64,000 nt of DNA from Acidimicrobiales bacterium (GTDB lineage: Bacteria > Actinomycetota > Acidimicrobiia > Acidimicrobiales > AC-14), in NCBI GenBank assembly GCA_025463925.1, contig JAODBK010000100.1, positions 1-64,000 of the forward strand, written 5' to 3'. Every line of letters begins with the position of its first letter. Position 1 is the stretch's first letter. The notes under the pieces are model-generated. The model did no database searches. It saw only the letters and a list, made by a program, of their open reading frames with translations, and had not been told where the DNA came from. This document shows positions 21,188-36,766 of the stretch, in pieces. Both the position numbers and the translations under genes were made by a program.

Positions 21188-21850
21188 ATGCCTGAGGGAA
21201 GCAACATCGGAAAGAGGCGCGTAGCTGCGCGTGCCGACTCGTCTTCCGCATACGGGAAACGACGTCTCGAACTGATCCACAAGGCGAAGTCCCTATTTCG
21301 CAGCAAGGGATATCACGCGACAAGTCTGAAGGACTTGGCCGAGCTCGTGGGCGGCGATCGAGCGTCGATCTACTACTACTTCAGCAGCAAACGTGATCTG
21401 TTCGAGGCGATTGTTGAAGAACCCGTCAGAGGTAATGTCACCACCGCAGAACACATCCGCGACAGCGATGTGAGTCCGCGACAGAAGCTCCGCGAGATCA
21501 TCATCGTGCTGATGAAGGTCTACGACGAGAACTACCCCGACTTCTTTGTCTTTCTACAAGAAGACCCCGCGCGCCTGACCGATGGGGACACGGCTTGGAC
21601 AAAGAAGATGACGGAGTGGAGCCGTCGGTACTACCGGGCCGTGCAGGACATCATCAATGAAGGCTTGGAAACGGGCGAGTTTCGGTCGAACTTGTCCGCA
21701 CGGCTTCTCGCCCACGGCATTCTTGGCACGATCAACTGGAGTCACCGCTGGTACAAGCCAGGACTCGGTACCTCTGCGGAGGACATCGGTGCTGGCTTCG
21801 CGGACATGATCGTGAACGGTCTTGCGGCACCAGCGAAACGATCGCGATAA
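21188..21850 (+). CDS. TetR family regulator of the 21-37 kb catabolic cluster
   Basis: The 220-residue TetR/AcrR repressor has a basic N-terminal arm, the HTH SLKDLAELVGGDRASIYYYF at about residues 46-65 and a C-terminal ligand domain ending in GTINWSHRWYKPG, reminiscent of KstR2-like regulators that sense CoA thioesters. It is the only regulator in the cluster, and an 18-bp palindrome recurs in front of the cluster's transcription units, so I infer it binds those sites. No copy is evident in front of its own gene; one lies 20 bases after its stop. ATG 21188 is the first start before the arm. Confidence 0.9.
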   Translation: MPEGSNIGKRRVAARADSSSAYGKRRLELIHKAKSLFRSKGYHATSLKDLAELVGGDRASIYYYFSSKRDLFEAIVEEPVRGNVTTAEHIRDSDVSPRQKLREIIIVLMKVYDENYPDFFVFLQEDPARLTDGDTAWTKKMTEWSRRYYRAVQDIINEGLETGEFRSNLSARLLAHGILGTINWSHRWYKPGLGTSAEDIGAGFADMIVNGLAAPAKRSR

Positions 21851-21869
21851 CTCCGTCCACCAGGAGCCG

Positions 21870-21887
21870 GTCAACTACTCTGTTGAC
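21870..21887. promoter_or_regulatory. TetR-type operator site 1
   Basis: GTCAAC-TACTCT-GTTGAC, both arms perfect, 25 bases before GTG 21913. Confidence 0.75.
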
Positions 21888-21912
21888 AAGATGCGCCGCA
21901 TTGAGCCATGCT

Positions 21913-22299
21913 GTGCACGTGGGTAGCACGGAGTCCTCGCCACGAGCACCCGTTCCTGGCCAACCGCCCGGCACGTCAGCTCTCATCATCGACCGCCGCA
22001 GCAATCGCCTCGCTCGGGCACTCGCCGCCCTCGGCGTAGAGGCCGGTGACCGTGTGGCGGTGGCGTGCTGCGACGACCACATGATCGACCGGGACGTCGC
22101 TCGCGCCGCGATCGCGAAGGCCGGGGCTGTGGCGGTCAGTGTCCACGGCCGTGCCGTCCGTGCGGTACTGGCGTGCGCCGAGGGCTTGGAGTGGTGGGAG
22201 CAGACCGGCGCGCGGGCCCTCGTCATCGCCGACGCTCCCGGCACGGTCTGGTGGAAGGCAGTCGAGCTCCGCCAACCCGCGACGCCGCTCGTCGCCTGA
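21913..22299 (+). CDS. Stand-alone fragment-like protein resembling an AMP-ligase N-terminus
   Basis: A 128-residue frame (GTG 21913; GTG 21919 also possible). The segment SNRLARALAALGVEAGDRVAVACCDDH and AAIAKAGAVAVSV match the first domain of acyl-CoA synthetases (typically ALxxLGVxxGDRVAVxxxN and LKAGAVxVPV). The protein stops after ALVIADAPGTVWWKAVELR, without ATP- or CoA-binding motifs. It may be a decayed ligase or a small protein that kept only this fold. The perfect operator just upstream argues that it is still expressed with the regulon. Confidence 0.6.
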   Translation: MHVGSTESSPRAPVPGQPPGTSALIIDRRSNRLARALAALGVEAGDRVAVACCDDHMIDRDVARAAIAKAGAVAVSVHGRAVRAVLACAEGLEWWEQTGARALVIADAPGTVWWKAVELRQPATPLVA

Positions 22300-22365
22300 C
22301 CGGTACACCGACATCGCTCATCGGTTGACGACGGTTGACACTCCTCTGGGTGCAACTTACACTCG

Positions 22366-22383
22366 GTCAACACAGGTGTAGAC
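22366..22383. promoter_or_regulatory. TetR-type operator site 2
   Basis: GTCAAC-ACAGGT-GTAGAC, upstream of the permease gene; two extra GTTGAC half-sites lie at 22324 and 22334. Confidence 0.6.
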
Positions 22384-22506
22384 GACCGAAGCTTGCAAAC
22401 TCCGGGCGAATGTTGCACCCGAGATCGGCAGGGTTTCCCCACGGATCTTGTAGGTCGCAGTGGACGATGAGTGGTCATAGACGCCCTTTCGCGTTGCACC
22501 GCCAAT

Positions 22507-23649
22507 ATGAAGATCGAAGCGCTGGCAGAAACGGGACCCAGGGTGGCGTCTGACACACGAGAGGCAAGCGCGGTCCCTGCCGAGCGAACTGGCGGCAGTG
22601 CGGTTCAAGGGAGCGATGGCGCCCGTTCCGGGGTCCGCGCTTGGACGGGGAAGGTACGGCGGGCGTCACACATCGAACAGGTTGGCGCGGTGTACCTTCT
22701 CGTCGCCATCGGCGTCATTTTCAGTGTGTGGAAGCCGGCCGTTTTCCCTCGATTGACGACCGTCCAGTCAATTCTCAACTCGAACGCAACGGTCGCTCTC
22801 CTCGCGCTGAGTCTCGTCATTCCCCTTGCCGCTGGTGTGTTCGACCTGTCGGTCGGCACCGTCATGGCCCTCACAGGGGTCCTGGCTGCAGAGCTGGTTG
22901 TGGGTCATGGGCTCCCGGTCAGTGTGGCGCTGTTCGCCGGGCTACTCGTGGGTCTCGCGGCCGGCGCCTTCAACGCGGCCATCGTCGTCGGGATCGGCAT
23001 CGAGTCGTTTATCGGAACGCTCGGCACGAGCTCGGTAATGGGCGCGATCATTCTGCTGATCAGTAACAACGAGAGCATCAGGAATGAGCACCTGAGCTCC
23101 ACGCTCCAAGATCTCGCGACACGAAATGTTGGCGGCATCCAGCTTCCGGTGTTCATTGTCGTGGCCGTGGCCGTAGTGATGTGGTACTTCCTCGAGCACA
23201 CGGTCTCGGGCCGCCGGCTCTACGCCATCGGTTTCAACGTCGAGGCTGCTCGGCTCTCTGGCATCCATACCAAGAAGCTGAGGGCTGGCGCCCTACTGAC
23301 ATCCGGGTTCCTTGCTGGCTTGGCGGGGCTGATTCTCATGGCGCAGACGGGCTCAGGTGCGCCGACGTCGGGTCCGCCATACCTGCTCGATGCCTTTGCG
23401 GCGGTGTTCTTGGGCGCTACGCAATTCCGGAATGGGCGGTTCAACACGTCCGGAACGCTGCTCGCGGTTGTGGTGCTGGGCACGGGGACTACCGGGCTAA
23501 CAATTGCCGGAGCGCGTACCTGGACTCTGAACCTGTTCATCGGAGTGGTGCTCGTGGTCGCGCTCGCACTCACCAAACTGGAAGTACGGCGCACGGCCGC
23601 ACCCATTGTTCAGGGCGACGCCATTGGCGACGAGCCCTTGCAGCACTGA
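22507..23649 (+). CDS. ABC transporter permease, ribose/sugar (RbsC) type
   Basis: The product (380 residues from ATG 22507; GTG 22471 would add 12) has a long polar N-terminus and about nine membrane spans. RbsC-type signatures are visible: LALSLVIPLAAGVFDLSVGTVMALTG, NAAIVVGIGIESFIGTLGT, YAIGFNVEAARLSGI (coupling loop) and AFAAVFLGATQF. It forms the channel of an importer with the binding protein that follows on + and the ATPase encoded at 32.8 kb on -. The substrate need not be a sugar; in catabolic clusters this type also imports other polar acids. Confidence 0.9.
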   Translation: MKIEALAETGPRVASDTREASAVPAERTGGSAVQGSDGARSGVRAWTGKVRRASHIEQVGAVYLLVAIGVIFSVWKPAVFPRLTTVQSILNSNATVALLALSLVIPLAAGVFDLSVGTVMALTGVLAAELVVGHGLPVSVALFAGLLVGLAAGAFNAAIVVGIGIESFIGTLGTSSVMGAIILLISNNESIRNEHLSSTLQDLATRNVGGIQLPVFIVVAVAVVMWYFLEHTVSGRRLYAIGFNVEAARLSGIHTKKLRAGALLTSGFLAGLAGLILMAQTGSGAPTSGPPYLLDAFAAVFLGATQFRNGRFNTSGTLLAVVVLGTGTTGLTIAGARTWTLNLFIGVVLVVALALTKLEVRRTAAPIVQGDAIGDEPLQH

Positions 23650-23762: not shown

Positions 23763-23780
23763 GTAAACGCACTAGTTGAC
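23763..23780. promoter_or_regulatory. TetR-type operator site 3
   Basis: GTAAAC-GCACTA-GTTGAC, 45 bases upstream of site 4. Confidence 0.6.
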
Positions 23781-23807: not shown

Positions 23808-23825
23808 GGCAACACCTACGTTGAC
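23808..23825. promoter_or_regulatory. TetR-type operator site 4
   Basis: GGCAAC-ACCTAC-GTTGAC, ending 15 bases before the binding-protein start, where bound repressor would block the ribosome-site/promoter region. Confidence 0.65.
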
Positions 23826-23840
23826 GGGGGACTTGTGGAG

Positions 23841-25070
23841 ATGAAGCGTCAGCTAGTCGGGGGTCGGCCGCGCCGTTACCCTTCCCATTCGCAGAGCGGT
23901 GGCGCTGTGCGCTCGATAGCGATCATGCTCGCGGCGGTGATCGTGCTGGCGTCTCTGGCGGCGTGCTCGTCCTCCAGCAGCACCAAAGCGACGACATCAG
24001 CAACAACGCAGAGCTCAGACGGGCTGTCGGCGGCAGGCAGTGCTGGACTCGCGAAGGCGAAAGCGGACCTCGAGGGGTGGCAGCGGGAGCCGACCAGCAT
24101 CGAGCTCACGACGCCGATTGGGAAGCCGATTCCCACCGGCAAGAAGATAAGCGCCGTCTTCGCTGCGAATGGATCAGCCAACTTGCTCTCGGACCCCCTG
24201 AAAGCAGCGGGCAAGGCCTTGGGCTGGGACGTCAAGGTCTCAGAGACACAATTCACTCCAGAGGCGATCCAAAGCAATTTCGCCCAGGCGGTGCGCGACA
24301 AGCCTGACGCCTTCGTTTACGCGGGATTCCCCGGCGCTACGGTTTCGCAGTCGCTCAGCGCCTTCGCAGCGGCGAAGACGCCGGTGGTGGCTGAGACAGT
24401 TGCCGAGACCACGGACGCTTCGAAGAACTACCTCGTCTTGCCCTCTCCGGACGTTTACGCCTTGGACGGGCAGATGTTGGCCGCATCGATCACCGTCGCG
24501 ACGGGCGGCAAGGGCAAACTCATGCTTGTTACCGTCCCTGCGTTTGAGATCTATGCGCCGGTGGTGGCAGCAGTCAATTCGAATCTGAAGAGCTACTGCC
24601 CCGATTGCGCTCTCGCCCAATACGACATGCCCGCCGAGTCGATCGGCAAAGATTCCGCTACTCGTATTACCAACTACATCCAAGGGCATCCAGGAATCAA
24701 CGGTCTCGTCGACGTGTTCGGGGCGTTCTCGATCGGCCTGCCCACCGCGCTACAAGGTGCGGGGATCGACCCGAAGTCGTTGAAGACCGTTGCGCTCTAT
24801 CCGCCGACTCAAGTCATTGGGATGGTCAAGCAGGGAGCGGTCTTCGCGGCCATCCCCTTCCCATTCGATGAATACATGTTCACCGCGGTCGACGCGATTG
24901 CGCGGTTGTTGGTCGGCGAGTCCTTTTCACCAGATGTCACTACCGCAGCCGCGAAGGCGCCAGCGGTCGTATGGACGCAGGCGAATGCTCCCGCCAATAC
25001 GGATACAACGGCCGGGCTTCCGATCATCAAGGACTATGAGGCCAAGTTCCGCGCCCTCTGGGGGAAGTAA
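23841..25070 (+). CDS. Substrate-binding lipoprotein of the sugar-type ABC importer
   Basis: The 409-residue precursor has a twin-basic N-terminus, a hydrophobic core (AIMLAAVIVLASLAAC) with lipobox LAAC and a Ser/Thr-rich linker, so the mature protein is membrane-anchored outside the cell. The mature part has the Peripla_BP_4 pattern of RbsB/ChvE-type proteins (KKISAVFAANGSANLLSDPLKAAGKALGWDVKV; NGLVDVFGAFSIGLPTALQGAG). ATG 23841 is favoured over GTG 23835. It captures the cluster's unknown substrate for the permease encoded just upstream. Confidence 0.9.
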   Translation: MKRQLVGGRPRRYPSHSQSGGAVRSIAIMLAAVIVLASLAACSSSSSTKATTSATTQSSDGLSAAGSAGLAKAKADLEGWQREPTSIELTTPIGKPIPTGKKISAVFAANGSANLLSDPLKAAGKALGWDVKVSETQFTPEAIQSNFAQAVRDKPDAFVYAGFPGATVSQSLSAFAAAKTPVVAETVAETTDASKNYLVLPSPDVYALDGQMLAASITVATGGKGKLMLVTVPAFEIYAPVVAAVNSNLKSYCPDCALAQYDMPAESIGKDSATRITNYIQGHPGINGLVDVFGAFSIGLPTALQGAGIDPKSLKTVALYPPTQVIGMVKQGAVFAAIPFPFDEYMFTAVDAIARLLVGESFSPDVTTAAAKAPAVVWTQANAPANTDTTAGLPIIKDYEAKFRALWGK

Positions 25071-25157: not shown

Positions 25158-26081
25158 ATGACGCTAGATCTCGTTCCGGTGACGGCCACCTTTGGCGTCG
25201 AGGTGTCAGGACTGGACCTGCGATCCGCGAACGCTGCCGACTTCGAGGCGCTCCGCGATGCCTTGCTGCAGCACAGGCTGCTGCTGTTCCGGAGCCCTTC
25301 GCTCGACAGTGAGGAGCAGGTTCGTGTGATGGAGTCGCTGCGCGTAGGCGAACCTCTACACGAGACGGCGCAGGCTCCTGCGTGGGGCTGGGTGACCAAC
25401 ACGGGAGAGCTGCCCGACGACGGCGGCATCGTTGACGCGAGCCCTACCGAACTTCTCTGGCACGCCGACTACGAATTCACTGAATTCGGCCCGATCCAAG
25501 CGATCTCTCTGTATGGCCATGAGGTTCCCGAGGCGAGCTATCCCACGATGCTGTCCAACAACGTCGAGGCCGTGAAGAGGTTGCCGGCAGATCTCAGGGA
25601 GAAGGTGCGTACGCTCAAGGTCCTCAAGGCGAAGGAGCACACCGGGCCCGGGGAGGGCTACGACGATTTCGCCAACCACCGAAACCGAGTCAGCGCGCCC
25701 GCACAAGAAGGAAACCTCTTCCACGGCTCGGAACACGACATCATTGAGACGCACCCAATCACCGGCGAGCCGTGGCTCACCGTCAGCCAGATGATGACGA
25801 GCCACGTCGTCGGATGGACCGATGAGGAGAGTGACGTTCTGTTCGCCGAGTTGGACGAGATCGCGTACGACCCAAGCAACGTCTACGAACATGACTGGCG
25901 GGTCGGCGATCTCATCGTGTGGGACAACATCGCGCTGCGGCATCGGCGGGGAACGACTCCAAAGGGCAGCACCCCAGGCGGTCGTCGGGTCCTTCGTAGG
26001 GTTGCGGTCGACTCGATCGACATGCTCACGCGCTTTCCGGTCGCGAGGCCCGCGGAAAGCCTGCAAGTCGTTGACCGTTAG
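25158..26081 (+). CDS. TauD/TfdA-family Fe(II)/2-oxoglutarate dioxygenase
   Basis: The 307-residue enzyme begins GVEVSGLDLRSANAADFEALRDAL and LLLFRSP, typical of TauD. The iron triad is readable: His and Asp in LWHADYEF (about residues 99-101) and the distal His in NIALRHRRG, followed by the 2-oxoglutarate Arg region (GGRRVLRRV). Such enzymes hydroxylate a carbon next to a sulfonate, ether, ester or amine and often split the molecule. GAGGGAG precedes ATG 25158. It sits directly upstream of an amidohydrolase in the same operon, so it may act early on the substrate. Confidence 0.9.
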   Translation: MTLDLVPVTATFGVEVSGLDLRSANAADFEALRDALLQHRLLLFRSPSLDSEEQVRVMESLRVGEPLHETAQAPAWGWVTNTGELPDDGGIVDASPTELLWHADYEFTEFGPIQAISLYGHEVPEASYPTMLSNNVEAVKRLPADLREKVRTLKVLKAKEHTGPGEGYDDFANHRNRVSAPAQEGNLFHGSEHDIIETHPITGEPWLTVSQMMTSHVVGWTDEESDVLFAELDEIAYDPSNVYEHDWRVGDLIVWDNIALRHRRGTTPKGSTPGGRRVLRRVAVDSIDMLTRFPVARPAESLQVVDR

Positions 26082-26102
26082 GTGCTGAAAGGTAGCGGCG
26101 AC

Positions 26103-27326
26103 GTGACGCTACCGCGAATCATCTCTGTTGATGATCATGTCGTCGAGCCGCCGGATCTCTGGATGGCGCGGATGGCGAGCAAGCACCGAGACCGCGCTCC
26201 GCACGTAGAACGGGTCCACGGTCACCAAGTGCATCGCGGCGCGGCTGAGGTCGAGCTCGTCGAAAGCGACGACGCAGATGCCACGTGGGCGGACGTGTGG
26301 GTGTACGACGATCTGCGCTGGCCCCTGATCGTGGGTTACGTCAACGTTGGTGATCTACGAGACCGGAACCTCACGGGCCACGCAATGGTGACGTACGACG
26401 ACATCCTGCCCGGCTGCTTTGAGCAAGGCTCTCGGCTGAAGGACATGGATCTGAACAACACCGAAGCGCAGCTTTGCTTTCCTACGGTTCCGCGGTTCTG
26501 TGGGCAACTGTTCCTTGAGCGAAAGGACAAGGAGTTTGCCCATCTGTGCTTGAAGACCTACAACGACTGGGTCATTGATGACTGGTGTGGCGGTGCAGGT
26601 CACGGCCGGCTGATTCCCAACATCGTTGTACCGCTCTGGGATGCGAATCTCGCAGCAACCGAGATCCACCGGTGCGCCGACAAGGGGACGCATGCGGTCG
26701 CGTTCTCTGAAGCACCTGTCGAGCTGGGTCTCCCCAGCATCCACTCGGGGTGGTGGGACCCGTTCCTTCTCGCCTGCGAACAGACCGAAACAGTCATCAA
26801 CATGCACGTCGGATCGTCCTCGAAGATGCCCACGACGGCACCGGACGCGCCGTTCAGCATCTGCGCCGCTCTCATTTTCGAGAACGTGCTGCGTTCGATG
26901 GTGGACTGGCTGATGTCGGGTGTCCTCGCGCGCTACCCGCGGTTGAGGATCGCCTTCAGTGAAGGACAAGTTGGATGGATGCCGTTCGTCCTACAACGAC
27001 TGGACTCATTGTGGGAGCGCGGCGAGATGTACGACCACGACATGCGCGTCCGTCTGCCCGATCCGCCAAGCTCCTACGTCCCAGGGCGGGTCTATGGCTG
27101 CGTCTTTGATGACGTGGTCGGGTTGCAGTCTCGTGATGTGATCGGGATGGGTCAGATCATGTTCGAGACTGACTATCCACATTCGGACTCGACGTTCCCG
27201 CATTCTGCTGACACCGCGCAAGCACTTGCGTCGGCCGCGGGTTTGAGCGATCACGAGATGTGGCAGTTCCTGCGCGGGAACGCGATCGAGTGCTATCGCC
27301 TCGAGAGCGTCGGGATCACTCAGTAG
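26103..27326 (+). CDS. Amidohydrolase-2 family metal-dependent hydrolase/decarboxylase
   Basis: A 407-residue TIM-barrel enzyme of the COG2159 type (ACMSD, resorcylate decarboxylase and LigY relatives). The N-terminus reads ISVDDHVVEPPDLW, so the metal motif is D-x-H-x-x-E rather than H-x-H. Later come NMHVGSSS (His), SEGQVGWMPFVLQRLDSLWE and FETDYPHSDSTFP (catalytic Asp). GTG 26103 is favoured; GTG 26082 directly abuts the previous stop. Three paralogues lie in the second cluster. It may hydrolyse a C-C or C-N bond or decarboxylate; sequence does not say which. Confidence 0.85.
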   Translation: MTLPRIISVDDHVVEPPDLWMARMASKHRDRAPHVERVHGHQVHRGAAEVELVESDDADATWADVWVYDDLRWPLIVGYVNVGDLRDRNLTGHAMVTYDDILPGCFEQGSRLKDMDLNNTEAQLCFPTVPRFCGQLFLERKDKEFAHLCLKTYNDWVIDDWCGGAGHGRLIPNIVVPLWDANLAATEIHRCADKGTHAVAFSEAPVELGLPSIHSGWWDPFLLACEQTETVINMHVGSSSKMPTTAPDAPFSICAALIFENVLRSMVDWLMSGVLARYPRLRIAFSEGQVGWMPFVLQRLDSLWERGEMYDHDMRVRLPDPPSSYVPGRVYGCVFDDVVGLQSRDVIGMGQIMFETDYPHSDSTFPHSADTAQALASAAGLSDHEMWQFLRGNAIECYRLESVGITQ

Positions 27327-27356: not shown

Positions 27357-28151
27357 TTGACCTCATTTAGCGGCTACGACTCGATCGAATTCCGTCGAGA
27401 AGCGGACGTGCTCATCGTTACGCTGCACAACCCGCGGAACTCGGTGAACGCGATCGACGACCGCATGCACCGCGAGCTCGCGCGCCTGTTTGGGGAACTC
27501 GGCGAGGAAAGGGCTGCCCGAGCCATCTTGTTGCGCGGCTCCGAGCAGGCCTTCAGCGCGGGTGGGGATCTGTCATGGATTCGTGACATGCAACCTGAGG
27601 ATCTCGACAGTCTCCGGCACATTGGGAAACAAATCGTCTGGAATCTTCTGGACGTCGAGATTCCGATCGTCGCGGCTGTGAACGGCCCGGCAATAGGCTT
27701 TGGCGCGACTCTCGCGCTCCTGTCGGACGCTCTCATCATGAGCGAGTCCGCACGGCTCGGGGATCCCCACGTGCGTCTTGGACTGGTCGCAGGAGACGGC
27801 GGAGCAGTCGTGTGGCCGCTACTCGTCGGACCGATGGTCGCGAAGCGGTACCTATTGACCGGTGACCTGATGACGGCCGCGGAGGCGCAGCGAATGGGCC
27901 TTGCGACTGAGGTTGTGCCGGATGGTGAGATGGACGCTCGTTCCCTGAGTTTCGCAAGGCGCTTGGCCTCCGGCGCGCCGCTCGCGATCCGGTACACCAA
28001 GCTCGCGATCAACCAACTTGTCAAGAATTCGATGACGATTGCTTTTGACTACTCCACCAGCCTCGAGGTCGCGACATTCGTGACGGCTGATCACAAGGAA
28101 GCCGTGCAAGCGTTCATGCAGAAGCGAGAACCGCGCTTCCGAGGCGCCTAA
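27357..28151 (+). CDS. Enoyl-CoA hydratase/isomerase family protein
   Basis: A 264-residue crotonase-fold protein. FSAGGDLSWIRDM (first oxyanion-hole segment) and VAAVNGPAIGFGATLALLSDALIMSESARLGDPHVRLGLVAGDGGA (second oxyanion glycine and the active-site loop) are present. The usual catalytic Glu of hydratases (GxxE at the first position) is not obvious, so isomerase, hydrolase or lyase chemistry is possible. TTG 27357 with AAGGG upstream is the best start. The C-terminal trimerisation helix region is complete. Confidence 0.88.
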   Translation: MTSFSGYDSIEFRREADVLIVTLHNPRNSVNAIDDRMHRELARLFGELGEERAARAILLRGSEQAFSAGGDLSWIRDMQPEDLDSLRHIGKQIVWNLLDVEIPIVAAVNGPAIGFGATLALLSDALIMSESARLGDPHVRLGLVAGDGGAVVWPLLVGPMVAKRYLLTGDLMTAAEAQRMGLATEVVPDGEMDARSLSFARRLASGAPLAIRYTKLAINQLVKNSMTIAFDYSTSLEVATFVTADHKEAVQAFMQKREPRFRGA

Positions 28152-28220
28152 CGGTGAAAACACCGCGCAACTGCCCTCAGCTACGCACCGGCGACGACAA
28201 CGGCGAGGAGATCCGCTTAC

Positions 28221-28730: not shown

Positions 28731-28886
28731 CGGGACTTCGACACGACCTCGGCTCGCGAACCGGACGACCTCGACACCGGGGCCGAGGACATGGCCCGCT
28801 CAGCCCCGTCGTCCGGTCCCCCCTGGCCGGTGCGGCGGGGCTGTTGCGCGTTCAGCTGCCGCTGAGCTACGTGCGGTGCGCGGCCC

Positions 28887-28904
28887 GTTAACAACGTAGT
28901 TGAC
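28887..28904. promoter_or_regulatory. TetR-type operator site 5
   Basis: GTTAAC-AACGTA-GTTGAC, 50 bases upstream of site 6. Confidence 0.6.
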
Positions 28905-28936
28905 AACCGCGCTTGGCCAGGCTGTAATGGGTTGGG

Positions 28937-28954
28937 TCCAACACTACTGTTGAC
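28937..28954. promoter_or_regulatory. TetR-type operator site 6
   Basis: TCCAAC-ACTACT-GTTGAC, ending 11 bases before ATG 28966 and touching its ribosome site. Confidence 0.65.
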
Positions 28955-28965: not shown

Positions 28966-30123
28966 ATGGTGAAGTTCCACCTGGTTCAGTACGGCGCCGT
29001 GGGTCGACCGCACGAGATCGAAGCCGGTATGGCGGGCCGTCGGGTCGACCTCTACCAGCGTTACTTGGAGGAGATCAGGTACTACGCCTCATACGCCGAT
29101 GAGCTGGGGTTCGCGGGCTACAGCCACAACGAGCATCACCTTCAGCTCGAGGGCTTCGAGGAATCGAATCACCCCGGCATGCTGAGCCTGTTCATCGGGC
29201 AACATTCCAAGAAGCTCACGGTCGGGACGCTCGGGTATGTGCTGCCTACGCACAACCCCGTGCGCGTTGCGGAAGAGGTCGCGACCCTCGATCACATGCT
29301 GAAAGGCCGCCTGCTCGTGGCCTTCCTCCGCGGCTATCAGGAACGCTGGACCAATACGTATGCGGCCGTCCAGGGCGTGACAGCGACAAGCCCAGTGCTC
29401 TCGAAAGCACATGACGAGCGTGACGACATCAACCGAGAGCTCTTCGAAGAGTCGTTCGACGTCGTCATGAAGGCCCTGACGTCAACCACCTTCAGTCACC
29501 GCGGGAAGTACTGGACATTCCCGCCGGACAACATCGTGGTCAAGCACCCGGCATACGCCGCGTGGGGGCAAGGGGTTCGCGATGACGGACTCGTGGAGGA
29601 GATCGGCATCGCGCCTGCCCCGTACCAAGACCCCCACCCGAAGATTTATGGTGGGTTCACCGGCAGCATGCGCACGACCAAGTTCTTCGCGCGGAAGGGC
29701 GCGAAGGTCATCGTTCCAGCCAACAACCTTGACTTCTGCGAGACCCTTTGGAATGTCTATATCGAGGAGGCTCGCGCTCAGGGAAGAGAGGTGGCGCGAG
29801 AAGACGCTGCTGCGTGGGGCGGTGCCCTCATCGTTCGGGAGACGCGTGAGCAAGCGGAAGAGGACGCCAAGGCCTTCGAGTTCATCACGAAGAAGTGGTT
29901 CGAGCCCATGGGCCAGAAGCCGACCGAAGCGATCATCGGTACTCCCGACGACGTGAGTGAGAAGATTGAGGAGGCGTACGAGCGCCTCGGCTTCAACGAA
30001 TGCTGGCTCATCTTCATGCAGGGACTACTCCCGCCCGAAATCGTCGGTGAGCACCTGCGTCTGTTCGCGGAAAAGGTGATGCCGCGCTTCAGCGAGCGAA
30101 ACGCCGACGGTGTGTACGTGTGA
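28966..30123 (+). CDS. LLM-class flavin-dependent monooxygenase (luciferase-like)
   Basis: The 385-residue bacterial-luciferase-family protein reads EIRYYASYADELGFAGYSHNEHHLQLEGF, LTVGTLGYVLPTHNPVRVAEEVATLDHMLKGRLLVAFLRGYQERW and PKIYGGFTGSMRTTKFFARKGAKVIVPANN. The EHH motif and the long C-terminal segment are family features. Such enzymes oxygenate ketones, sulfur compounds or hydrocarbons with reduced FMN from a separate reductase, and no reductase gene is seen here. GGAGAGAG precedes ATG 28966. It is followed 12 bases later by a MaoC-like gene. Confidence 0.9.
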   Translation: MVKFHLVQYGAVGRPHEIEAGMAGRRVDLYQRYLEEIRYYASYADELGFAGYSHNEHHLQLEGFEESNHPGMLSLFIGQHSKKLTVGTLGYVLPTHNPVRVAEEVATLDHMLKGRLLVAFLRGYQERWTNTYAAVQGVTATSPVLSKAHDERDDINRELFEESFDVVMKALTSTTFSHRGKYWTFPPDNIVVKHPAYAAWGQGVRDDGLVEEIGIAPAPYQDPHPKIYGGFTGSMRTTKFFARKGAKVIVPANNLDFCETLWNVYIEEARAQGREVAREDAAAWGGALIVRETREQAEEDAKAFEFITKKWFEPMGQKPTEAIIGTPDDVSEKIEEAYERLGFNECWLIFMQGLLPPEIVGEHLRLFAEKVMPRFSERNADGVYV

Positions 30124-30135
30124 CGGAGTAGAAGC

Positions 30136-30603
30136 GTGACGGAGGAACGAGCCGCCGCGTCGTTGGTTGGAACAACGGTCGTCAGCTCTCGGCGAACTTT
30201 GTCTGAGACGGAGTTCTCGGTCCTGTTGTCACTGACGTGGGCACTTCACCCGTTGCACTTGGACACCGAGTACGCGCAGGCACGAGGCTTTCGCGATCGG
30301 ATAATGGACGGACCGCTGCTGCTGGCGCTGGCCATCGGGCTTGAGGTGTTCGCCGGTGTGGGTCGCCTCATCGATGAGTCCGGCATCCGGCTGATCGCTC
30401 TGAAGGAGATCGAGCACGTGCGATTTCTGGCGCCCGTCTATCCACAGGACGCTATCTTCACAAGCACTGAATTTCTCGACACCCAACCAGCCACACGGCC
30501 GGGTCGATGGAACATGCACGTGAGCACACAGCTCTACAAAGGGGTGGACGAATTGGTAATGCAGGCGTCCCGCACCTTCGCGTTCGAGCTCGACCAGAAG
30601 TAG
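30136..30603 (+). CDS. MaoC-like hot-dog hydratase/thioesterase
   Basis: A 155-residue single hot-dog protein starting at GTG 30136 behind GGAG. The motif LHPLHLDTEYAQARGFRDRIMDGPLLLALAIGL corresponds to the MaoC hydratase motif (D/H-x(5)-H-x-D...F), with RVRFLAPVYPQD-type strands near residue 95. It probably hydrates an enoyl-CoA made from the pathway intermediate, or acts as a thioesterase. It lies between the monooxygenase and the CoA ligase. Confidence 0.85.
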   Translation: MTEERAAASLVGTTVVSSRRTLSETEFSVLLSLTWALHPLHLDTEYAQARGFRDRIMDGPLLLALAIGLEVFAGVGRLIDESGIRLIALKEIEHVRFLAPVYPQDAIFTSTEFLDTQPATRPGRWNMHVSTQLYKGVDELVMQASRTFAFELDQK

Positions 30604-30674
30604 TGCCACCTGTGCTGGACGGACCGAAACGGCAGACGTGGGGGGACGTCCCGATTGCCGAAAGTGTTGACCTC

Positions 30675-32258
30675 ATGACGGCCGACACGACGCCCGTGTT
30701 GCAGCGGACGCTCAGGGACGTCCTCGAGAAGGCCGTCAAAGATCGCTCCGATCAGCCGGCGATCCTTTCGCCCGACGAGTCGTACACGTACGGCCAACTC
30801 TACGGCGACTGCCTGCGTATCGGGAACGGCTTCCGTGGGCTGGGACTCCATCGGCACGAGCCGGTTCTTCTGATGCTCGACAATCATTGTGATTTCGTCC
30901 GTGCCTGGATCGCGCTCAACCTCTTTGGCGGCGTCGAGGTGCCCGTCAACACCGCGTACAAGGGCGCAGTTCTTGAGCATCTGGTCCGTGACTCCGGCGC
31001 GCGCATGCTGGTCGTCGAGGCAAAGTACCTAGAGCGATTCGAAGACATCTTCCGCCAGTTGGATGCCGAACTTCGGGTTGTCGTGCGCGGTGACTCGGCC
31101 ACACCCACGGTGACTCGCGGCTCGATTACGAACTTCGAGGAGCTGGCAGATCACGACGAAGGGTCGCCGGTCGCCTTGGCACCGTGGGACCCGATGGGCA
31201 TTCTGTACACATCGGGAACAACCGGGCCAGCCAAAGGTGTCGTGGCCTCCCATGCCTACGCACACAGCTTCGCACCGAATTACATCGCAGCGTCCGGCCG
31301 AATCGCGACCGCGCTGCCGCTGTTCCACATCGGAGGGCAGTGGACCGGGGTCTACGCCGCGCTGCGCGTCGGCGGCAGCGTCGCGATACTGCCTGGCTTC
31401 CATGCGAGCACGTTCTGGCAAGAAGCGACTTCGTTGGAGTGCACGCAAACCCTGCTCGTCGGTGCCATGGCGCGATTCCTCATGAATAGCCCGGCCGCGC
31501 CGGACGACCGTTCGCACTCAGTCAGGCATATCAATATGTGCCCGGTCATCTCTGACGTCGCCGAGTTCGCGGAACGCTTCGGTGTGTCGGTCTGCGCGAC
31601 ATATGGCCTGACGGAGGGTTCCACACCAATGCTCACCCCGTACGGGCTCGCCGCTCCGCAATTTGCGGGCTGGATTCGCGAGGACTTCGAAGCAAGGATC
31701 ACGGACGAAAACGACATCGAGTTGCCGGTCGGTCAAGTCGGGGAGATCGTGCTCCGCGCAAGAGACCCCTGGGCGGTGATGTCTGAGTATCACGGCCTAC
31801 CTGACAAGAGCGCCGATGCGTTTCGCAACCTCTGGCTGCACACCGGCGATCTTGGTTACCGCGACGACCAGGGGCGTTACTTCTTCGTGGACAGAAAAGA
31901 CGACGCCATCCGCGTCCGGGGCGAAAACGTGTCCTCGTACGAAGTCGAGTCGGTCGTCGACGCGCATCCCGACGTGTCTGCAAGCGTTGCGGTTGCCGTG
32001 AAAAGCGAGAACACCGAAGATGACATCAAGGTCGTAGTCGTGCTTCACGAGAATGCGCCGCTCCGGCCCGAAGACCTGACGACCTACCTGATCGACCGGC
32101 TGCCCTACTTCATGGTCCCGCGCTACATCGAGTTCGTTGATGAACTACCGAGGACACCAACCGAGAAGATCAGGCGGGATCAGCTCCGACGGACCGGCGT
32201 GTCGAGCACTTCCTGGGACCGCGTGGCCGCCGGGATCGAGGTCAAGCGCCCTCGCTGA
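30675..32258 (+). CDS. Acyl-CoA synthetase (CaiC-like AMP-binding ligase)
   Basis: The product (527 residues from ATG 30675; GTG 30603 would overlap the MaoC stop and add 24) is an ANL adenylating enzyme. P-loop-like YTSGTTGPAKGVV, ATYGLTEGSTPM, WLHTGDLGYRDDQGRYFFVDRKDDAIRVRGENVSSYEVE and the catalytic lysine in PRTPTEKIRR are all visible. The family activates carboxylic acids to CoA thioesters; resemblance to CaiC is from the VNTAYKG and GGQWTG segments. It probably charges the imported acid or an intermediate. Confidence 0.9.
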   Translation: MTADTTPVLQRTLRDVLEKAVKDRSDQPAILSPDESYTYGQLYGDCLRIGNGFRGLGLHRHEPVLLMLDNHCDFVRAWIALNLFGGVEVPVNTAYKGAVLEHLVRDSGARMLVVEAKYLERFEDIFRQLDAELRVVVRGDSATPTVTRGSITNFEELADHDEGSPVALAPWDPMGILYTSGTTGPAKGVVASHAYAHSFAPNYIAASGRIATALPLFHIGGQWTGVYAALRVGGSVAILPGFHASTFWQEATSLECTQTLLVGAMARFLMNSPAAPDDRSHSVRHINMCPVISDVAEFAERFGVSVCATYGLTEGSTPMLTPYGLAAPQFAGWIREDFEARITDENDIELPVGQVGEIVLRARDPWAVMSEYHGLPDKSADAFRNLWLHTGDLGYRDDQGRYFFVDRKDDAIRVRGENVSSYEVESVVDAHPDVSASVAVAVKSENTEDDIKVVVVLHENAPLRPEDLTTYLIDRLPYFMVPRYIEFVDELPRTPTEKIRRDQLRRTGVSSTSWDRVAAGIEVKRPR

Positions 32259-32287
32259 CGCCGACGACAACTATCCGAGGAGTGCGA

Positions 32288-32749
32288 ATGTCAGAGGACA
32301 GCCTTGAGGCGATCGTTGACTCGCTGGAGTCAAGCCTGGAGATCGAGCAGATCACGTATTACTTCGCACACGGGATCGATAAGCGCGATGAAGAAAAGTT
32401 CCTGGGTATCTGGACCGAAGGTGCGACGTTGGTTAGCGACTCGCACACCTACCAGGGCCGGGACTCACTCCGGCAATACCTCATAGACATCTGGCGGGAG
32501 CTACCCGTCTCTCATCACTACGTCGCAAACAACGACGTCCGAATCTCCGGTGACACCGCCGAAGGAATCTGCGACCACGACGTCCTTGCGACCACCGCGG
32601 ATGGGGAAACAGTGATCCTGGCCGCTTCAGCGTTCGACACGTACCGCCGAGTAGGACGGACTTGGCGCATCGAACACCGCAGGATCGAGACTTGCCATCG
32701 GCTGGCGCTTCCCGGCGTCGAGCTGACGGGCAATCCGCGGCCTTGGTAG
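32288..32749 (+). CDS. NTF2-like/SnoaL protein, paralogue of 34416-34889
   Basis: A 153-residue cone-shaped-fold protein: EIEQITYYFAHGIDKRDEEKFLGIWTEGATLV, SHHYVANNDVRISGDTAEGICDHDVL, RVGRTWRIEHRRIE. GAGG lies just before ATG 32288. Its ordered motifs match the protein encoded at 34416-34889 (HYV-N, ISGD-A-GI-D-D), so the two are paralogues on either side of the ATPase gene. Similar proteins act as dehydratases, isomerases or ring-opening enzymes in aromatic and steroid pathways. Confidence 0.87.
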   Translation: MSEDSLEAIVDSLESSLEIEQITYYFAHGIDKRDEEKFLGIWTEGATLVSDSHTYQGRDSLRQYLIDIWRELPVSHHYVANNDVRISGDTAEGICDHDVLATTADGETVILAASAFDTYRRVGRTWRIEHRRIETCHRLALPGVELTGNPRPW

Positions 32750-32792
32750 CGGGCCCAGGCGGGTACGACGCCGCGTCGCGGTCGTGAGCACG

Positions 32793-34334
32793 TTAAGCCG
32801 TAACGCCTTCCGTTTCAGACAAGATGTCGTCGGCAGAGATGCTCGGCCGTCTCAACTCACAGCGAATTCGGCCCCTCTCCAGGACCAATACCCGATGACA
32901 GAGCGACACAAGGTCCTCTACGTCAGACGAGCAGATGAGAATGCTGAGTCCGGCCGCGGCCTTTTCCTCGAGAAGCGCATAGAGCGCGCGACGCGCAGCA
33001 ACATCTACGCCGGCGGTCGGCTCGGCTAGCACGAGAATCCTCGGATTTGTGTAAAGGCACCGCGCGAGCAACACGCGCTGTCTGTTCCCGCCACTCAGCG
33101 ACGTGATCGGTCTTTCAGCGGTCTCAGCGTCGATTCCGATGTCATGTAGCCAACGTCTCGCCTCCCTCGTCTCGCGGTGCTTGGCGAGCATCCCCCCGCG
33201 GCCTCGAAGAGTAGGCAGTGCACTCAGGGTGAGGTTCTCGGTCACGGAAAACTCAGCGATGAGCCCCTCGCGGTCGCGCTCGGCGGGTACAAACGCTATG
33301 CCCAATTCCTCAGATGAGAGATTTTTCGGTCCTGGATCGACCTCCTTGCCGTTGACGCTCCAACGTCCAATGCAGCTCGACGGCGCCGCTCCGGCGAGGA
33401 CATAGGGGAGCTCCTCCCGGCCGGAGCCGACCAGCCCCGCCACGCCCAATATCTCGCCGCGCTGGAGGTGAAGGTCGATGCCCGAAAGGCTGCGGGACCG
33501 CAATCCGCGCACACGAAGCACCGCGGTCGGGTCGGTCGGCTCAGGACCTACGGCGTGAGGAGAATCCCGCACAGTCGAGAGGAACCGCCCTGCGATCAGG
33601 GCCACCAAGTCGCGAGCGGTGAACTCGCCAACGGCGCCGGATCCGACCAGGCGACCGTTCCGCAGAACTGCGACGTCATCGGCGATCTCGAACACCTCAT
33701 CCATGCGATGGGACACGTAGATGACAGCGTGTCCGCGGTCGCGTACTTCGCGTATGACCTGAAACAGCCTCGCGACCTCTCGGGATGGCAGGGCAGCCGT
33801 GGGTTCATCCAGTACCAGGATGCGCCGACCGTCGCCCCAATCCCACATCGCCCGTGCAATCGCGATGCACGTCTGTTCTACGGCGGAGGTTCCTGTGAGG
33901 GGCGCGCGCACATCGAGGCGAATGCCGAAACGTGCCAGCAACGCTTCGGTGTTCGCGATTTGGGTCCGCTGGAGGACTCTGCCGGTGCGAGACCTGTGGT
34001 AACCGGTCGTAAGCGCGACGTTGTCGACGACGCTCAGTTCACGGATCAGGCCAAGATCTTGGTGCACGAAACGAAGCCCGCGTGCCTTTGCGGACTCCGC
34101 TGATCCAAGGTCCAGGCTTTCTCCGTCTACCCAAGCGCGTGCGCCGTCATCGGGTTTGTAAAACCCTGCCAGTACACGGATCAGTGTCGACTTGCCGGAC
34201 CCGTTCGGGCCCAGCAGCGCCAGGACTCTTCCCCGGTTCACCGCAAGGTCGACGTTGTTCAACGCGACGGTGGCAGAGAAAGTCTTTGACAAGCTTGCGA
34301 TCTGCAGCGCAGGAACCACCTGGTCAGTCATCAT
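32793..34334 (-). CDS. Double-NBD sugar-type ABC transporter ATPase (RbsA-like)
   Basis: The 513-residue protein has two nucleotide-binding domains. Domain 1 has Walker A LLGPNGSGKST and Walker B ILVLDEPTAAL, but its signature is degenerate (TSAVEQTCIAIARA). Domain 2 has the degenerate Walker A (GLVGSGREEL) usual for RbsA proteins and a good signature LSGGNRQRVLLARCL, but its Walker B is VLAEPTAGVD, with Ala where Asp is expected. It should power the permease and binding protein encoded at 22.5-25.1 kb. It is the last gene of a leftward operon behind an NTF2-like gene and converges with the other NTF2-like gene. Confidence 0.9.
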   Translation of the reverse strand: MMTDQVVPALQIASLSKTFSATVALNNVDLAVNRGRVLALLGPNGSGKSTLIRVLAGFYKPDDGARAWVDGESLDLGSAESAKARGLRFVHQDLGLIRELSVVDNVALTTGYHRSRTGRVLQRTQIANTEALLARFGIRLDVRAPLTGTSAVEQTCIAIARAMWDWGDGRRILVLDEPTAALPSREVARLFQVIREVRDRGHAVIYVSHRMDEVFEIADDVAVLRNGRLVGSGAVGEFTARDLVALIAGRFLSTVRDSPHAVGPEPTDPTAVLRVRGLRSRSLSGIDLHLQRGEILGVAGLVGSGREELPYVLAGAAPSSCIGRWSVNGKEVDPGPKNLSSEELGIAFVPAERDREGLIAEFSVTENLTLSALPTLRGRGGMLAKHRETREARRWLHDIGIDAETAERPITSLSGGNRQRVLLARCLYTNPRILVLAEPTAGVDVAARRALYALLEEKAAAGLSILICSSDVEDLVSLCHRVLVLERGRIRCELRRPSISADDILSETEGVTA

Positions 34335-34415
34335 GTCGCCCGAGCGTGCCTTGTGGCTGCCATCCGTGCGCATCGGTCGTGACCTTCAGCCCGCCGTCGG
34401 CGGCTCCGTCGGCTT

Positions 34416-34889
34416 TCACGCGATCGTCGCCTCCGAACCGAGTCTCGCCGTATGAGCGGGCCACACCTTGCGCCGGGCGATGCGCCAGACGCCGTCCCGC
34501 CGCTCGTAGTCGTCGTATTGCGGTGAAGAGAAGAGAATCGCCAACCCGGTTGACGTCCCAAGCAAGATGTCTTGGTCGGTGATTCCCGTCGCTCGGTCGC
34601 CTGAAATGACGAACGTCGCATTCTTGACGTAGTGCCGGGTGATCGGCATGTCGACCCAGATATGCGTTGTCAAAAATGTTCGCAACGCGTCATGGCCGGC
34701 ATATTCGCCAATGCCCGGTCCGCAGTCGAATACGCCGTCTTCATGAAATGCCGAGAGGAAACGCGCCTCGTCACGTCGATCCATCCCGTACTGGACATCC
34801 CGGCAGAGCGACAAGAGGTGCCGGCGTGCGCTGAGGTCGTAGATTCGGGCCCGCAGTCGGGCTTGCGCATCTGACGACACTGAGGTCAT
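34416..34889 (-). CDS. NTF2-like/SnoaL protein, paralogue of 32288-32749
   Basis: A 157-residue protein with HLLSLCRDVQYGMDRRDEARFLSAFHEDGVFD, ITRHYVKNATFVISGDRATGITDQDIL and RRDGVWRIARRKV. GGAGGGAG precedes ATG 34889. It is the first gene of the leftward operon that continues with the ATPase, 81 bases apart, and an operator lies 32 bases upstream of its start. Its role is unknown; co-regulation and paralogy with 32288-32749 suggest the pair handle related intermediates or form a heteromer. Confidence 0.87.
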   Translation of the reverse strand: MTSVSSDAQARLRARIYDLSARRHLLSLCRDVQYGMDRRDEARFLSAFHEDGVFDCGPGIGEYAGHDALRTFLTTHIWVDMPITRHYVKNATFVISGDRATGITDQDILLGTSTGLAILFSSPQYDDYERRDGVWRIARRKVWPAHTARLGSEATIA

Positions 34890-34921
34890 CCGCCTGCTCC
34901 CTCCTGCGCAATGCAAGGTCT

Positions 34922-34939
34922 ATCTACACATGTGTTGAC
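34922..34939. promoter_or_regulatory. TetR-type operator site 7
   Basis: ATCTAC-ACATGT-GTTGAC, in front of the leftward NTF2-ATPase operon. Confidence 0.6.
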
Positions 34940-35000
34940 GACTGCTTGTGAGCGTACGTTTGACCCGTTGCCGGTGTCAAGCGAGCCCCGTGAGGAGTCT

Positions 35001-35018
35001 GTCAACACTCATGTTGCC
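35001..35018. promoter_or_regulatory. TetR-type operator site 8
   Basis: GTCAAC-ACTCAT-GTTGCC, about 170 bases before the rightward CoA ligase gene, in the divergent gap shared with site 7. Confidence 0.6.
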
Positions 35019-35188
35019 GACGGGCCCGTATTCCGTTAATGTGACCCTTGCCGGGACCAGAGGCGCGAGGACGCGGCCCGGCGTGGTTCGGTTACCTCGC
35101 AGTCGACATTCGACGCAGATCGTGGAGTTCGATGAGAGCTCAATCGCCTGGGGCTTCAGCCATACGCGCCGTCGGGAGTGGGTAGCTG

Positions 35189-36766
35189 TTGGGGACTTCT
35201 CTCGTCCCCCTGACGCCCGCGGCCTTCCTGGCGCGTGCCGCAACGGTTTACCGAGACAAGGTGGCCATCGTCGACGGCGATCGGCGGTTCACCTACAGCG
35301 AGTTTTTCGAGCGGTCACTGCGTCTCACGGGCTTGCTCGCTTCGCTAGGTGTTGCATCCGGCGATCGCGTGGCCGCCCTATGTCAGAACAGTCACGTGAT
35401 GCTCGAGATGCACAACGGTGTCCCGATGCGTGGCGCGGTGCTCGTTCCATTGAACGTTCGCCTCTCGGAGTCTGAACTGTCATACATTGTCGAGCACTCG
35501 GGCTCACGTGTCCTCATCGCGACCGCCGAGGTCGCGGATCTCGCACAGCGTGTCGCTCTTGCGACCGGAATCGAGCTTGTCGTCGCGGGCGAAGGAGGGA
35601 ACTACGAACGCCTTCTGGCAACGTCACAGAGAGAGCCGCTCCCCTGCAGGGACGAAGGCGGGTTGCTCGCGATCAACTACACCAGTGGGACGACCGGCCG
35701 TCCCAAGGGCGTCATGTACCACCACCGCGGTGCCTATCTTCAGGCGCTTGCGATGGCCTTCCATGCGCGCCTCAGTGCCGAAAGCGTCTATTTGTGGACG
35801 CTACCGATGTTCCACTGCAACGGATGGTGCTTCACGTGGGCAGTCACCACGGCTGGTGCCAAGCATGTCTGCGTTCGTGCCTTCGACGCCGCGGCCGTGT
35901 GGCGCCATCTCGATACCGAAGCTGTCACCCACTTCAGCGCCGCGCCGACCGTTCTCACGATGATCGCTGCGGCACCCGAAGCGGATCCGTCCGTTCTCAG
36001 CGACCGAACGGTCCACGCCCAGACTGGCGGCGCGCCGCCGAGTCCAACCCTGCTGGCGCGCATGACTGAGCTCAACATTGACGTGACTCACTTGTACGGC
36101 TTGACAGAAACGTTCGGCCCGATTGCGATCAATGACTGGCAATCGGCATGGGACGAGTTGCCGACTGCGATGCGCGCGGCCATGAAGGCACGCCAAGGCG
36201 TTGGCAACGTTATCTCCGAGCGCCTCCGCGTCGTCGACATGGAAGGGCGAGATGTCCCAAACGACGGCCGAACGATCGGTGAGGTGGTTGTTCAGGGAAA
36301 CGCTGTGATGCTCGGCTATTACCGAGACGATGATGCCAACGATGCGGCAGACTTCGACGGCTGGCTTCGTACCGGCGATCTCGGAGTCTTGCATTCGGAC
36401 GGCTATCTGGAGTTACGCGATCGGGCAAAGGACGTAATCATCTCTGGCGGCGAGAACATCGCCTCCGTCGAGGTCGAGCGCATGATCGACTCGCATCCGG
36501 GCGTCATTGAGAGCGCGGTTGTTGCGGCGCCGGATCCGACTTGGGGCGAAGTCCCGGTTGCCTTCGTGACGCCTTCCCCAAACGTCGTCGTCTCCGCGGA
36601 CGACATCATCGATTACGTCCGTGAGCACCTCGCTCATTTCAAGGCGCCGAAGTGGGTGGTCTTCGGCGAACTACCAAAGACATCTACCGGGAAGATCCGG
36701 AAGAACGTGCTGCGCGAGCAAGCATTACTCGCCGGTCAATTGGCCGACAGGCACGACTCTGCGTAG
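35189..36766 (+). CDS. Acyl-CoA synthetase (long/medium-chain FadD-type)
   Basis: A 525-residue ANL ligase. AINYTSGTTGRPKGVMYHHRGAYLQ (ATP loop), LPMFHCNGWCFTW, HLYGLTETFGP, WLRTGDLGVLHSDGYLELRDRAKDVIISGGENIASVEVE and the catalytic lysine in PKTSTGKIRK are intact. The MFHCNGW segment is common in the group that includes medium-chain and aromatic acyl ligases. TTG 35189 with GGGAG upstream is the best start. It is the last gene before the second cluster and has its own operator, so two distinct acids are probably activated in this pathway. Confidence 0.9.
   Translation: MGTSLVPLTPAAFLARAATVYRDKVAIVDGDRRFTYSEFFERSLRLTGLLASLGVASGDRVAALCQNSHVMLEMHNGVPMRGAVLVPLNVRLSESELSYIVEHSGSRVLIATAEVADLAQRVALATGIELVVAGEGGNYERLLATSQREPLPCRDEGGLLAINYTSGTTGRPKGVMYHHRGAYLQALAMAFHARLSAESVYLWTLPMFHCNGWCFTWAVTTAGAKHVCVRAFDAAAVWRHLDTEAVTHFSAAPTVLTMIAAAPEADPSVLSDRTVHAQTGGAPPSPTLLARMTELNIDVTHLYGLTETFGPIAINDWQSAWDELPTAMRAAMKARQGVGNVISERLRVVDMEGRDVPNDGRTIGEVVVQGNAVMLGYYRDDDANDAADFDGWLRTGDLGVLHSDGYLELRDRAKDVIISGGENIASVEVERMIDSHPGVIESAVVAAPDPTWGEVPVAFVTPSPNVVVSADDIIDYVREHLAHFKAPKWVVFGELPKTSTGKIRKNVLREQALLAGQLADRHDSA

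Follow-up and report, generated by a model that had tools for sequence, protein, structure and literature searches.

A candidate catabolic unit for a cyclic carboxylic acid in an Acidimicrobiales genome and its regulator, operator and monooxygenase module

The camphor route of Pseudomonas putida is described as running from hydroxylation and dehydrogenation through a Baeyer-Villiger ring opening to a coenzyme A (CoA) ester and a second ring opening (PMC6027186). The Pfam family PF04909 is said to comprise hydrolases, decarboxylases and amidohydrolase-related dinuclear oxygenases (PMC10811679), and PtmU3 is reported to hydroxylate the beta position and to take substrates bound to CoA (PMC7782822). 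Here, we analyzed a stretch of 64,000 nucleotides (positions 1-64000 of contig JAODBK010000100.1, hereafter the window) from the draft genome of an Acidimicrobiales bacterium (4.08 Mb, 96.67% complete). Positions 21188-36766 hold a cluster of 14 genes, which is an unusual combination of ordinary parts joined to a module with reach across phyla: a TetR-family regulator, its putative operator and a luciferase-like flavin monooxygenase (LLM). We read the cluster, with a probability of about 0.45, as a catabolic unit that was acquired horizontally, is repressed by TetR and breaks down a polar cyclic carboxylic acid, most likely a keto acid of the terpenoid type or one of its precursors.

Gene content, operator and composition of the cluster

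A preliminary description of this DNA had proposed a catabolic cluster for an acid with one common operator. The genes that it named are all present where it had placed them, each with a match in Pfam, and the two CoA ligases, the importer and the oxygenases under one operator agree with its reading as a catabolic unit. The genes are:

21188..21850, plus strand, TetR-family repressor, probable cluster regulator (Pfam TetR_N, TetR_C_24)
22471..23649, plus strand, RbsC-type permease (Pfam BPD_transp_2; ribose/allose permease models below cut-offs)
23835..25070, plus strand, RbsB-type solute-binding protein (Pfam Peripla_BP_4)
25158..26081, plus strand, TauD/TfdA-type 2-oxoglutarate dioxygenase (Pfam TauD; top PDB relatives AtsK, TauD and RdpA-type)
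26082..27326, plus strand, AHS1, amidohydrolase-fold candidate dinuclear oxygenase (Pfam Amidohydro_2, PDB relatives, ligand set)
27357..28151, plus strand, crotonase, an enoyl-CoA hydratase/isomerase (Pfam ECH_1)
28221..28730, plus strand, DUF7700 protein of 169 residues (Pfam PF24777, 7e-22)
28966..30123, plus strand, LLM, candidate type II Baeyer-Villiger enzyme (Pfam Bac_luciferase, fold)
30136..30603, plus strand, MaoC-like hydratase (Pfam MaoC_dehydratas)
30675..32258, plus strand, CoA ligase 1 (ACS1), PRK06155-like (AMP-binding family match)
32282..32749, plus strand, SnoaL_4 (NTF2-like) protein 1 (Pfam SnoaL_4)
32793..34373, minus strand, RbsA-type double ATPase (Pfam ABC_tran twice; YtfR/XylG/RbsA models below cut-offs)
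34416..34916, minus strand, SnoaL_4 (NTF2-like) protein 2 (Pfam SnoaL_4)
35189..36766, plus strand, CoA ligase 2 (ACS2), PRK08162-like (AMP-binding family match)

For CoA ligase 1, the ATG at 30675 is the more likely start because a start at 30507 would overlap the MaoC gene and the family match begins at residue 57. An open reading frame (ORF) at 34948-35475, which has no family and overlaps CoA ligase 2, was set aside. The importer is complete for the RbsABC (CUT2) type, with a permease, a Peripla_BP_4 binding protein and a double ATPase. None of its genes matched an NCBIfam equivalog above its cut-off, and a PDB search at E 0.01 returned no relative of the binding protein. SnoaL_4 protein 2 shares 31-33% identity with NTF2-like proteins from the related clusters treated below. 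Among the 14 genes we found no acyl-CoA dehydrogenase, thiolase or 3-hydroxyacyl-CoA dehydrogenase and no P450, ring-cleaving dioxygenase, flavin reductase or Rieske protein.

The operator palindrome, GTCAACANNNNTGTTGAC, was picked by eye from the intergenic DNA of the window; its counts there are not independent of that choice, and the independent test is provided by the counts in loci of other genomes. With up to three mismatches allowed, ten sites were present in the window versus 1.53 expected, a number reached in 0 of 100 shuffles. Nine of them lie within 21188-36766 and the tenth at 14365. Although intergenic DNA makes up 10.8% of the cluster stretch, eight of its nine sites are intergenic; the ninth (35843, three mismatches) is inside the coding part of CoA ligase 2. 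In the whole 4.08-Mb genome, all three sites that deviate at one position or fewer and 7 of the 15 that deviate at two or fewer were found in the cluster. The common operator thus takes the form of eight intergenic copies, two in each of four regions (TetR-permease, permease-binding protein, DUF7700-LLM and SnoaL_4 protein 2/CoA ligase 2), listed here without strand:

21870..21887, copy 1, one mismatch, precedes the truncated ligase ORF
22366..22383, copy 2, one mismatch, just downstream of TTGACA 22335 / TACACT 22358
23763..23780, copy 3, three mismatches
23808..23825, copy 4, two mismatches
28887..28904, copy 5, two mismatches, overlaps TTGACA at 28900
28937..28954, copy 6, two mismatches, near the expected LLM transcription start
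34922..34939, copy 7, two mismatches, between divergent genes
35001..35018, copy 8, one mismatch, between divergent genes

In front of the permease gene, a promoter-like TTGACA-17-TACACT pair precedes the operator. This placement fits repression by the TetR protein encoded at the head of the cluster (21188-21850), which would bind the palindrome copies. Directly behind copy 1, an ORF of 138 codons that partially matches the AMP-binding family (21883-22299) is possibly the remnant of another CoA ligase.

The composition of the cluster genes differs from that of 14 flanking genes both in G+C content (0.614 versus 0.712) and in mean log codon likelihood (-1.166, sd 0.090, versus -0.958, sd 0.065). 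The lower G+C content noted at the outset was borne out against the flanking genes, with the correction that the DNA just downstream is at 0.65-0.67 and that values of about 0.70 are not attained before 42 kb. A separate low-G+C stretch (0.60-0.67) lies at 10-18 kb. A sibling genome from another genus of the family, compared over 54 kb, matched (85%) at 17703-21039 only, and this match ends 149 bases before the TetR gene. Among ten genomes of the family, LLM was found in the window's own genome and was absent from the other nine. Because of the atypical composition and the break in synteny before the cluster, the acquisition by horizontal transfer that had been suggested is plausible.

Positions 9710-13906 contain a tRNA-Gly gene, a phage-type integrase (10408-11808) and an Imm35 protein (13163-13780), which belong to a small integrated element whose two attachment ends are both present. 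The cluster was considered as cargo of this element, and this was rejected because a 30-nt exact repeat of the tRNA-Gly at 13877 limits the element to about 9.8-13.9 kb. A DDE_3 (IS630-like) transposase gene (15785-16876) lies between the element and the conserved stretch that starts at 17.7 kb.

The TetR/operator/LLM module in other genomes

LLM has the luciferase-like fold of type II Baeyer-Villiger monooxygenases: its model (pLDDT 82) matched RslO1, luciferases and 3,6-diketocamphane monooxygenase and also resembles MsuD and SfnG. By sequence, its kinship to the diketocamphane monooxygenase 4uwm is not close (7.4e-6). Luciferase-type oxidation of this kind is described as known or proposed for progesterone (PMC12239570) and anthraquinone (PMC9836352).

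A search at 1e-40 found no LLM match in 392 of 396 genomes sampled from the phylum. When 84,980 species were scanned, relatives with 50-64% identity were found in 51 loci of other genomes (64% applies to a contig-end fragment, 50-58% to the others), mostly in sphingomonads and also in Pseudomonas, Pseudonocardia, Saccharopolyspora, Streptomyces, Pandoraea, Binatia and others. Some of these loci share a strain and some are contig-end fragments, so that gene counts are lower bounds and site counts are not independent. At least 29 of the 51 encode a TetR protein with at least 35% identity to that of Sphingobium xenophagum plasmid pSH1. The window TetR shares 31-38% identity with 15 of the TetR proteins from related loci, and the DRA(T/S)xYYY part of the DNA-reading region is conserved between them. 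The pattern derived from the window occurred in the 51 loci at 54 sites with at most one mismatch and at 123 sites with at most two, versus 0 and 2 for the reversed control. Just upstream of LLM, a site was present in 27 of 43 loci versus 2.7% of random stretches from the same loci; the 43 are those with 200 bases upstream, and eight loci with less were left out. A stricter consensus, RTCAACN6GTTGAY, chosen after the loci had been seen, occurred 124 times in 41 of the 51 loci and not at all in the control. In a tree, the window LLM and the relatives from the 51 loci formed one branch with a support of 100/100, except for the Peribacillus, Sulfitobacter and G469 rows. The window itself combines a related TetR, the palindrome upstream of LLM and an LLM orthologue.

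The search in other genomes that the preliminary description had advised hence showed that the module recurs, but this module is all that is shared with the camphor-type clusters described next. With relatives in at least 51 loci, the view that no known pathway resembles the cluster had to be given up. No description of a TetR/LLM cluster was found among the matches listed in a search of open-licence papers. The contigs of Pseudomonas strains BN417, BN411, BN102 and taiwanensis xwS3 break inside near-identical LLM copies, and these strains each seem to carry at least two copies within one large cluster. For the LLM match at locus G437:C21, the genome search indicated one TAG, and the translation of 375-1496 (minus strand) contains none.

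One related cluster was examined closely, that on pSH1 of S. xenophagum PH3-15, which carries an LLM orthologue with 54% identity. Its P450 is nearest to 3nv5 and 4dxy (1.7e-226), followed by CYP101D1 and P450cam. According to PMC9655578, 3NV5 is CYP101D2 with camphor as substrate, and CYP101D5 of Sphingomonas echinoides acts on ionones and flavonoids instead. The second LLM of pSH1 is nearest to 3,6-diketocamphane 1,6-monooxygenase (2.3e-101). Across the 51 loci a second LLM is present in at least 34, a zinc dehydrogenase in at least 27 and a P450 in at least 23, and a CoA ligase, two crotonases, a flavin reductase and ribB also recur. As these kinds of genes match the order of the camphor-route chemistry, many of the related clusters look camphor-type, by which we mean directed at bicyclic or ionone-like terpenoids. 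Terpenoids, which had been among the candidate acids for the window cluster, thereby gain support, though indirectly, via the common module. Plain camphor degradation by the window's organism was rejected, its genome having neither a diketocamphane monooxygenase nor a close CYP101. Positions 28000-44000 of pSH1 also encode an additional LLM and another P450, the latter with ferredoxin.

AHS1 and its neighbor DUF7700

The protein AHS1 had been listed as an amidohydrolase-2. This is correct for the fold, that of PF04909, but the protein is probably a dinuclear metal oxygenase and not a hydrolase, because DitZ and PtmU3 are its closest relatives of solved structure and it has all the ligands found in the dinuclear oxygenases. 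By sequence, DitZ (8uyr, 1.1e-46) and PtmU3 (2.9e-29) were both far ahead of the ACMSD decarboxylases. By fold, the order was the same, with manganese-substituted DitZ of Rhodococcus rhodochrous followed by PtmU3; the AHS1 model is moderate (pLDDT 68) and about 26% identical to DitZ over the fold alignment. Hibi et al., from whom the AibH2 ligand numbering is taken, report an extra acidic residue for binuclear members only (PMC7782822). AHS1 has the full ligand set (D17, H19, H242, E294, D364, H367) together with the second-shell acidic residue D369. The same ligands and acidic residue are present in AHS2 and AHS3 of the window, and among 33 further homologues from the fetched loci the six ligands are found in 32 (the remaining one being a truncated reading) and the acidic residue in 30. 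Direct beta-hydroxylation by AHS1 would account for the missing acyl-CoA dehydrogenase.

It is unlikely that AHS1 is instead an ordinary one-metal hydrolase or decarboxylase in a unit for the degradation of an aromatic or heteroaromatic acid. PF04909 does contain many decarboxylases, ACMSD is among the matches of AHS1, and no Rieske partner is encoded near it. However, DitZ and PtmU3 score far above ACMSD, AHS1 has the set D-x-H, H, E, D, H plus the acidic residue that is reported only for binuclear members (PMC7782822), and the unit has no ring-cleaving dioxygenase.

The window's genome holds 44 Amidohydro_2 genes, and four other genomes of the order hold 14 to 59 each. The genes that were checked have the dinuclear-oxygenase ligands, which suggests that such enzymes have expanded greatly and that many genes annotated as 'amidohydrolase' may encode oxygenases. 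Just downstream of the cluster, at higher G+C content, a second acyl-CoA gene set (38784-47800) comprises a short-chain dehydrogenase (SDR), two acyl-CoA dehydrogenases, a CoA ligase, a further SDR, a MaoC hydratase and two further oxygenase-like amidohydrolases (39591-40820 and 40916-42154). In the bsd I cluster of Caenibius tardaugens, an amidohydrolase about 21-fold induced on cholate is read as a conjugate hydrolase (PMC12882949); it could be another dinuclear oxygenase.

The 169-residue protein, listed at first as unknown, is indeed encoded but belongs to an existing family, DUF7700 (PF24777, 7e-22), which recurs beside amidohydrolase-2 and TauD genes. Members of the family were found in 23 of 298 genomes from the order and in 7 of 396 from the phylum. 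Of 25 DUF7700 loci, 17 have an amidohydrolase-2 gene no more than 2.5 kb away, on the same strand in 16 of the 17; in five more it is 3.5-7.1 kb away, and three loci, two of them on contigs of 3.1 and 6.2 kb, have none. With 14 to 59 such genes in each of the five genomes, a chance neighbor is expected in about one of ten stretches. TauD directly adjoins DUF7700 in 7 of the 25 loci, which are not independent, eight of the genomes belonging to one genus (g40). Residues H77, E85, RFD 88-90, PHYHY 96-100 and D114 are conserved in 23 sequences and look like a metal site or an active site. The DUF7700 profile found no solved relative in the PDB (best E 0.57), and searches of the literature and of plasmids returned no papers and no match, respectively.

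Proposed degradation of a cyclic acid and comparison with known systems

The gene content, the common operator, the unusual composition, the module found in other phyla and the metal ligands of AHS1 are computed results; the chemical steps, their order, the inducer and the substrate class, the latter by association, we infer as follows. The acid would be taken up by the RbsABC importer and converted to its CoA thioester by CoA ligase 1 or 2, and the thioester or a ketone intermediate would free TetR from the four promoter regions. AHS1 would then hydroxylate an unactivated C-H, which for PtmU3 is at a beta position of an acid bound to CoA, and the TauD protein would hydroxylate another; these steps would explain a unit without acyl-CoA dehydrogenase. 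With FMNH2 from a reductase encoded elsewhere, LLM would insert oxygen next to a ring ketone in a type II Baeyer-Villiger step, and the opened chain would enter beta-oxidation via the crotonase, MaoC and the second ligase.

Several points weigh against this proposal. The cyclic-acid class is assigned by association, and importers of the RbsABC type usually serve sugars. The Rieske motif C-x-H-x13-20-C-x2-H is absent from the six frames of 15001-50000. Liu et al. reportedly used a neighboring Rieske protein as a search criterion for dinuclear oxygenases, a criterion that PtmU3 presumably does not share. LLM is only about 18% identical, over the fold alignment, to proven type II Baeyer-Villiger enzymes. 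In the tree it falls outside the operator-bearing group on a long end branch, so that equal function of LLM and its relatives is not assured. The strict palindrome RTCAACN6GTTGAY is fitted by only one of the eight window copies and is missing from 10 of the 51 loci, among which are most of the actinobacterial isolates (Pseudonocardia, Saccharopolyspora, Streptomyces) and of the Binatia/deltaproteobacterial loci. The P450, zinc dehydrogenase and diketocamphane monooxygenase of the camphor clusters are absent from the window, and the genome has no close copy, the best being 28% identical for the second LLM and 35% for the P450. Two type I Baeyer-Villiger enzymes that carry both fingerprints are encoded near the pSH1 cluster (within 28000-44000), which makes the step assigned to LLM less certain for S. 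xenophagum and weakens the idea that LLM replaces the OTE monooxygenase of the camphor route. Finally, no flavin reductase for the supply of FMNH2 is among the 14 cluster genes, and LLM relatives elsewhere have a flavin reductase or ribB alongside; in P. putida, such reductases are described as being chromosomally encoded as well (PMC6843404).

A wider version of the proposal appears doubtful to us. It sees a previously undescribed cross-phylum regulon in which a KstR2-like TetR and GTCAAC-N6-GTTGAC would govern the opening of rings, by luciferase-type enzymes, in CoA esters of terpenoid-derived ketones. In the window, this control would have been transferred to a sugar-type importer and to an amidohydrolase-fold hydroxylase with a dinuclear metal center, which would stand in for acyl-CoA dehydrogenase, and DUF7700 would be a dedicated partner of this hydroxylase family.

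Degradation of an organosulfonate or sulfate ester, in which TauD and LLM would release sulfite and the remaining enzymes handle the carbon skeleton, is improbable. The top PDB relatives of TauD are the alkylsulfatase AtsK and taurine dioxygenases, and the fold of LLM is similar to those of MsuD and SfnG too, but full-length SsuD/SfnG models scored 20-41 bits versus cut-offs of 383-518, the unit has no sulfonate importer, and the LLM family accompanies camphor-type genes in other genomes. We see a similarly small chance that a steroid or bile-acid side chain is what the unit breaks down. The TetR protein is KstR2-like, KstR2 being among its best characterized PDB relatives (2.7e-18); the described bile-salt cluster of C. 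tardaugens combines a TetR, a strongly induced amidohydrolase, the ligase SclA and a MaoC protein (PMC12882949); and an LLM of the same organism is reported to oxidize progesterone (PMC12239570). A whole-genome search, however, found no KshA C-terminal domain (PF19298) at 96.67% completeness, which makes the 9,10-seco route unlikely and on which steroid degradation was rejected, and the sphingomonad LLM loci have CYP101-type P450s instead. A biosynthetic or tailoring cluster is very improbable: RslO1, PtmU3 and SnoaL relatives do function in antibiotic biosynthesis, but a complete importer and two CoA ligases are present and the stretch has no polyketide, peptide or terpene synthase.

The degradation of a cyclic acid, which we prefer, offers a mechanism that can be tested for genes that had been annotated but left unexplained. 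DUF7700 gains a first functional context, and a regulator and operator are tied to one enzyme family in at least three bacterial phyla or classes. Related loci are present in the cultured strains S. xenophagum PH3-15, Sphingomonas echinoides ATCC 14820 and Pseudonocardia endophytica DSM 44969 and in Saccharopolyspora spinosa and Pandoraea terrae.

With regard to KstR2, the likeness lies in the sequence kinship of the TetR proteins, whereas the window cluster has no HIP genes and an operator that we take to be unlike the KstR2 motif. AHS1 has the PF04909 fold and full ligand set in common with PtmU3, DitZ, AibH2 and SfbO as described (PMC10811679, PMC7782822, PMC10401708), but it has no adjacent Rieske protein and is known from sequence and model. 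The CAM plasmid of P. putida resembles the cluster in TetR-type repression, in luciferase-fold flavin monooxygenases and in a CoA ester stage that precedes the second ring opening, and differs in that this opening is carried out by OTE monooxygenase (PMC6027186); its P450, dehydrogenase and diketocamphane genes have no counterparts in the window. The cluster on pSH1 has a TetR from the same family (36%), a palindrome of the same kind, the LLM orthologue (54%) and NTF2-like proteins, as well as a CoA ligase and crotonases from the same superfamilies. It differs by its P450, zinc dehydrogenase, diketocamphane-type second LLM, flavin reductase, ribB and TonB receptor, whereas RbsABC, TauD, AHS1, DUF7700 and MaoC are found in the window cluster instead. 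The latter shares only the TetR/operator/LLM module with the camphor-type clusters and thus probably acts on a different cyclic keto acid.

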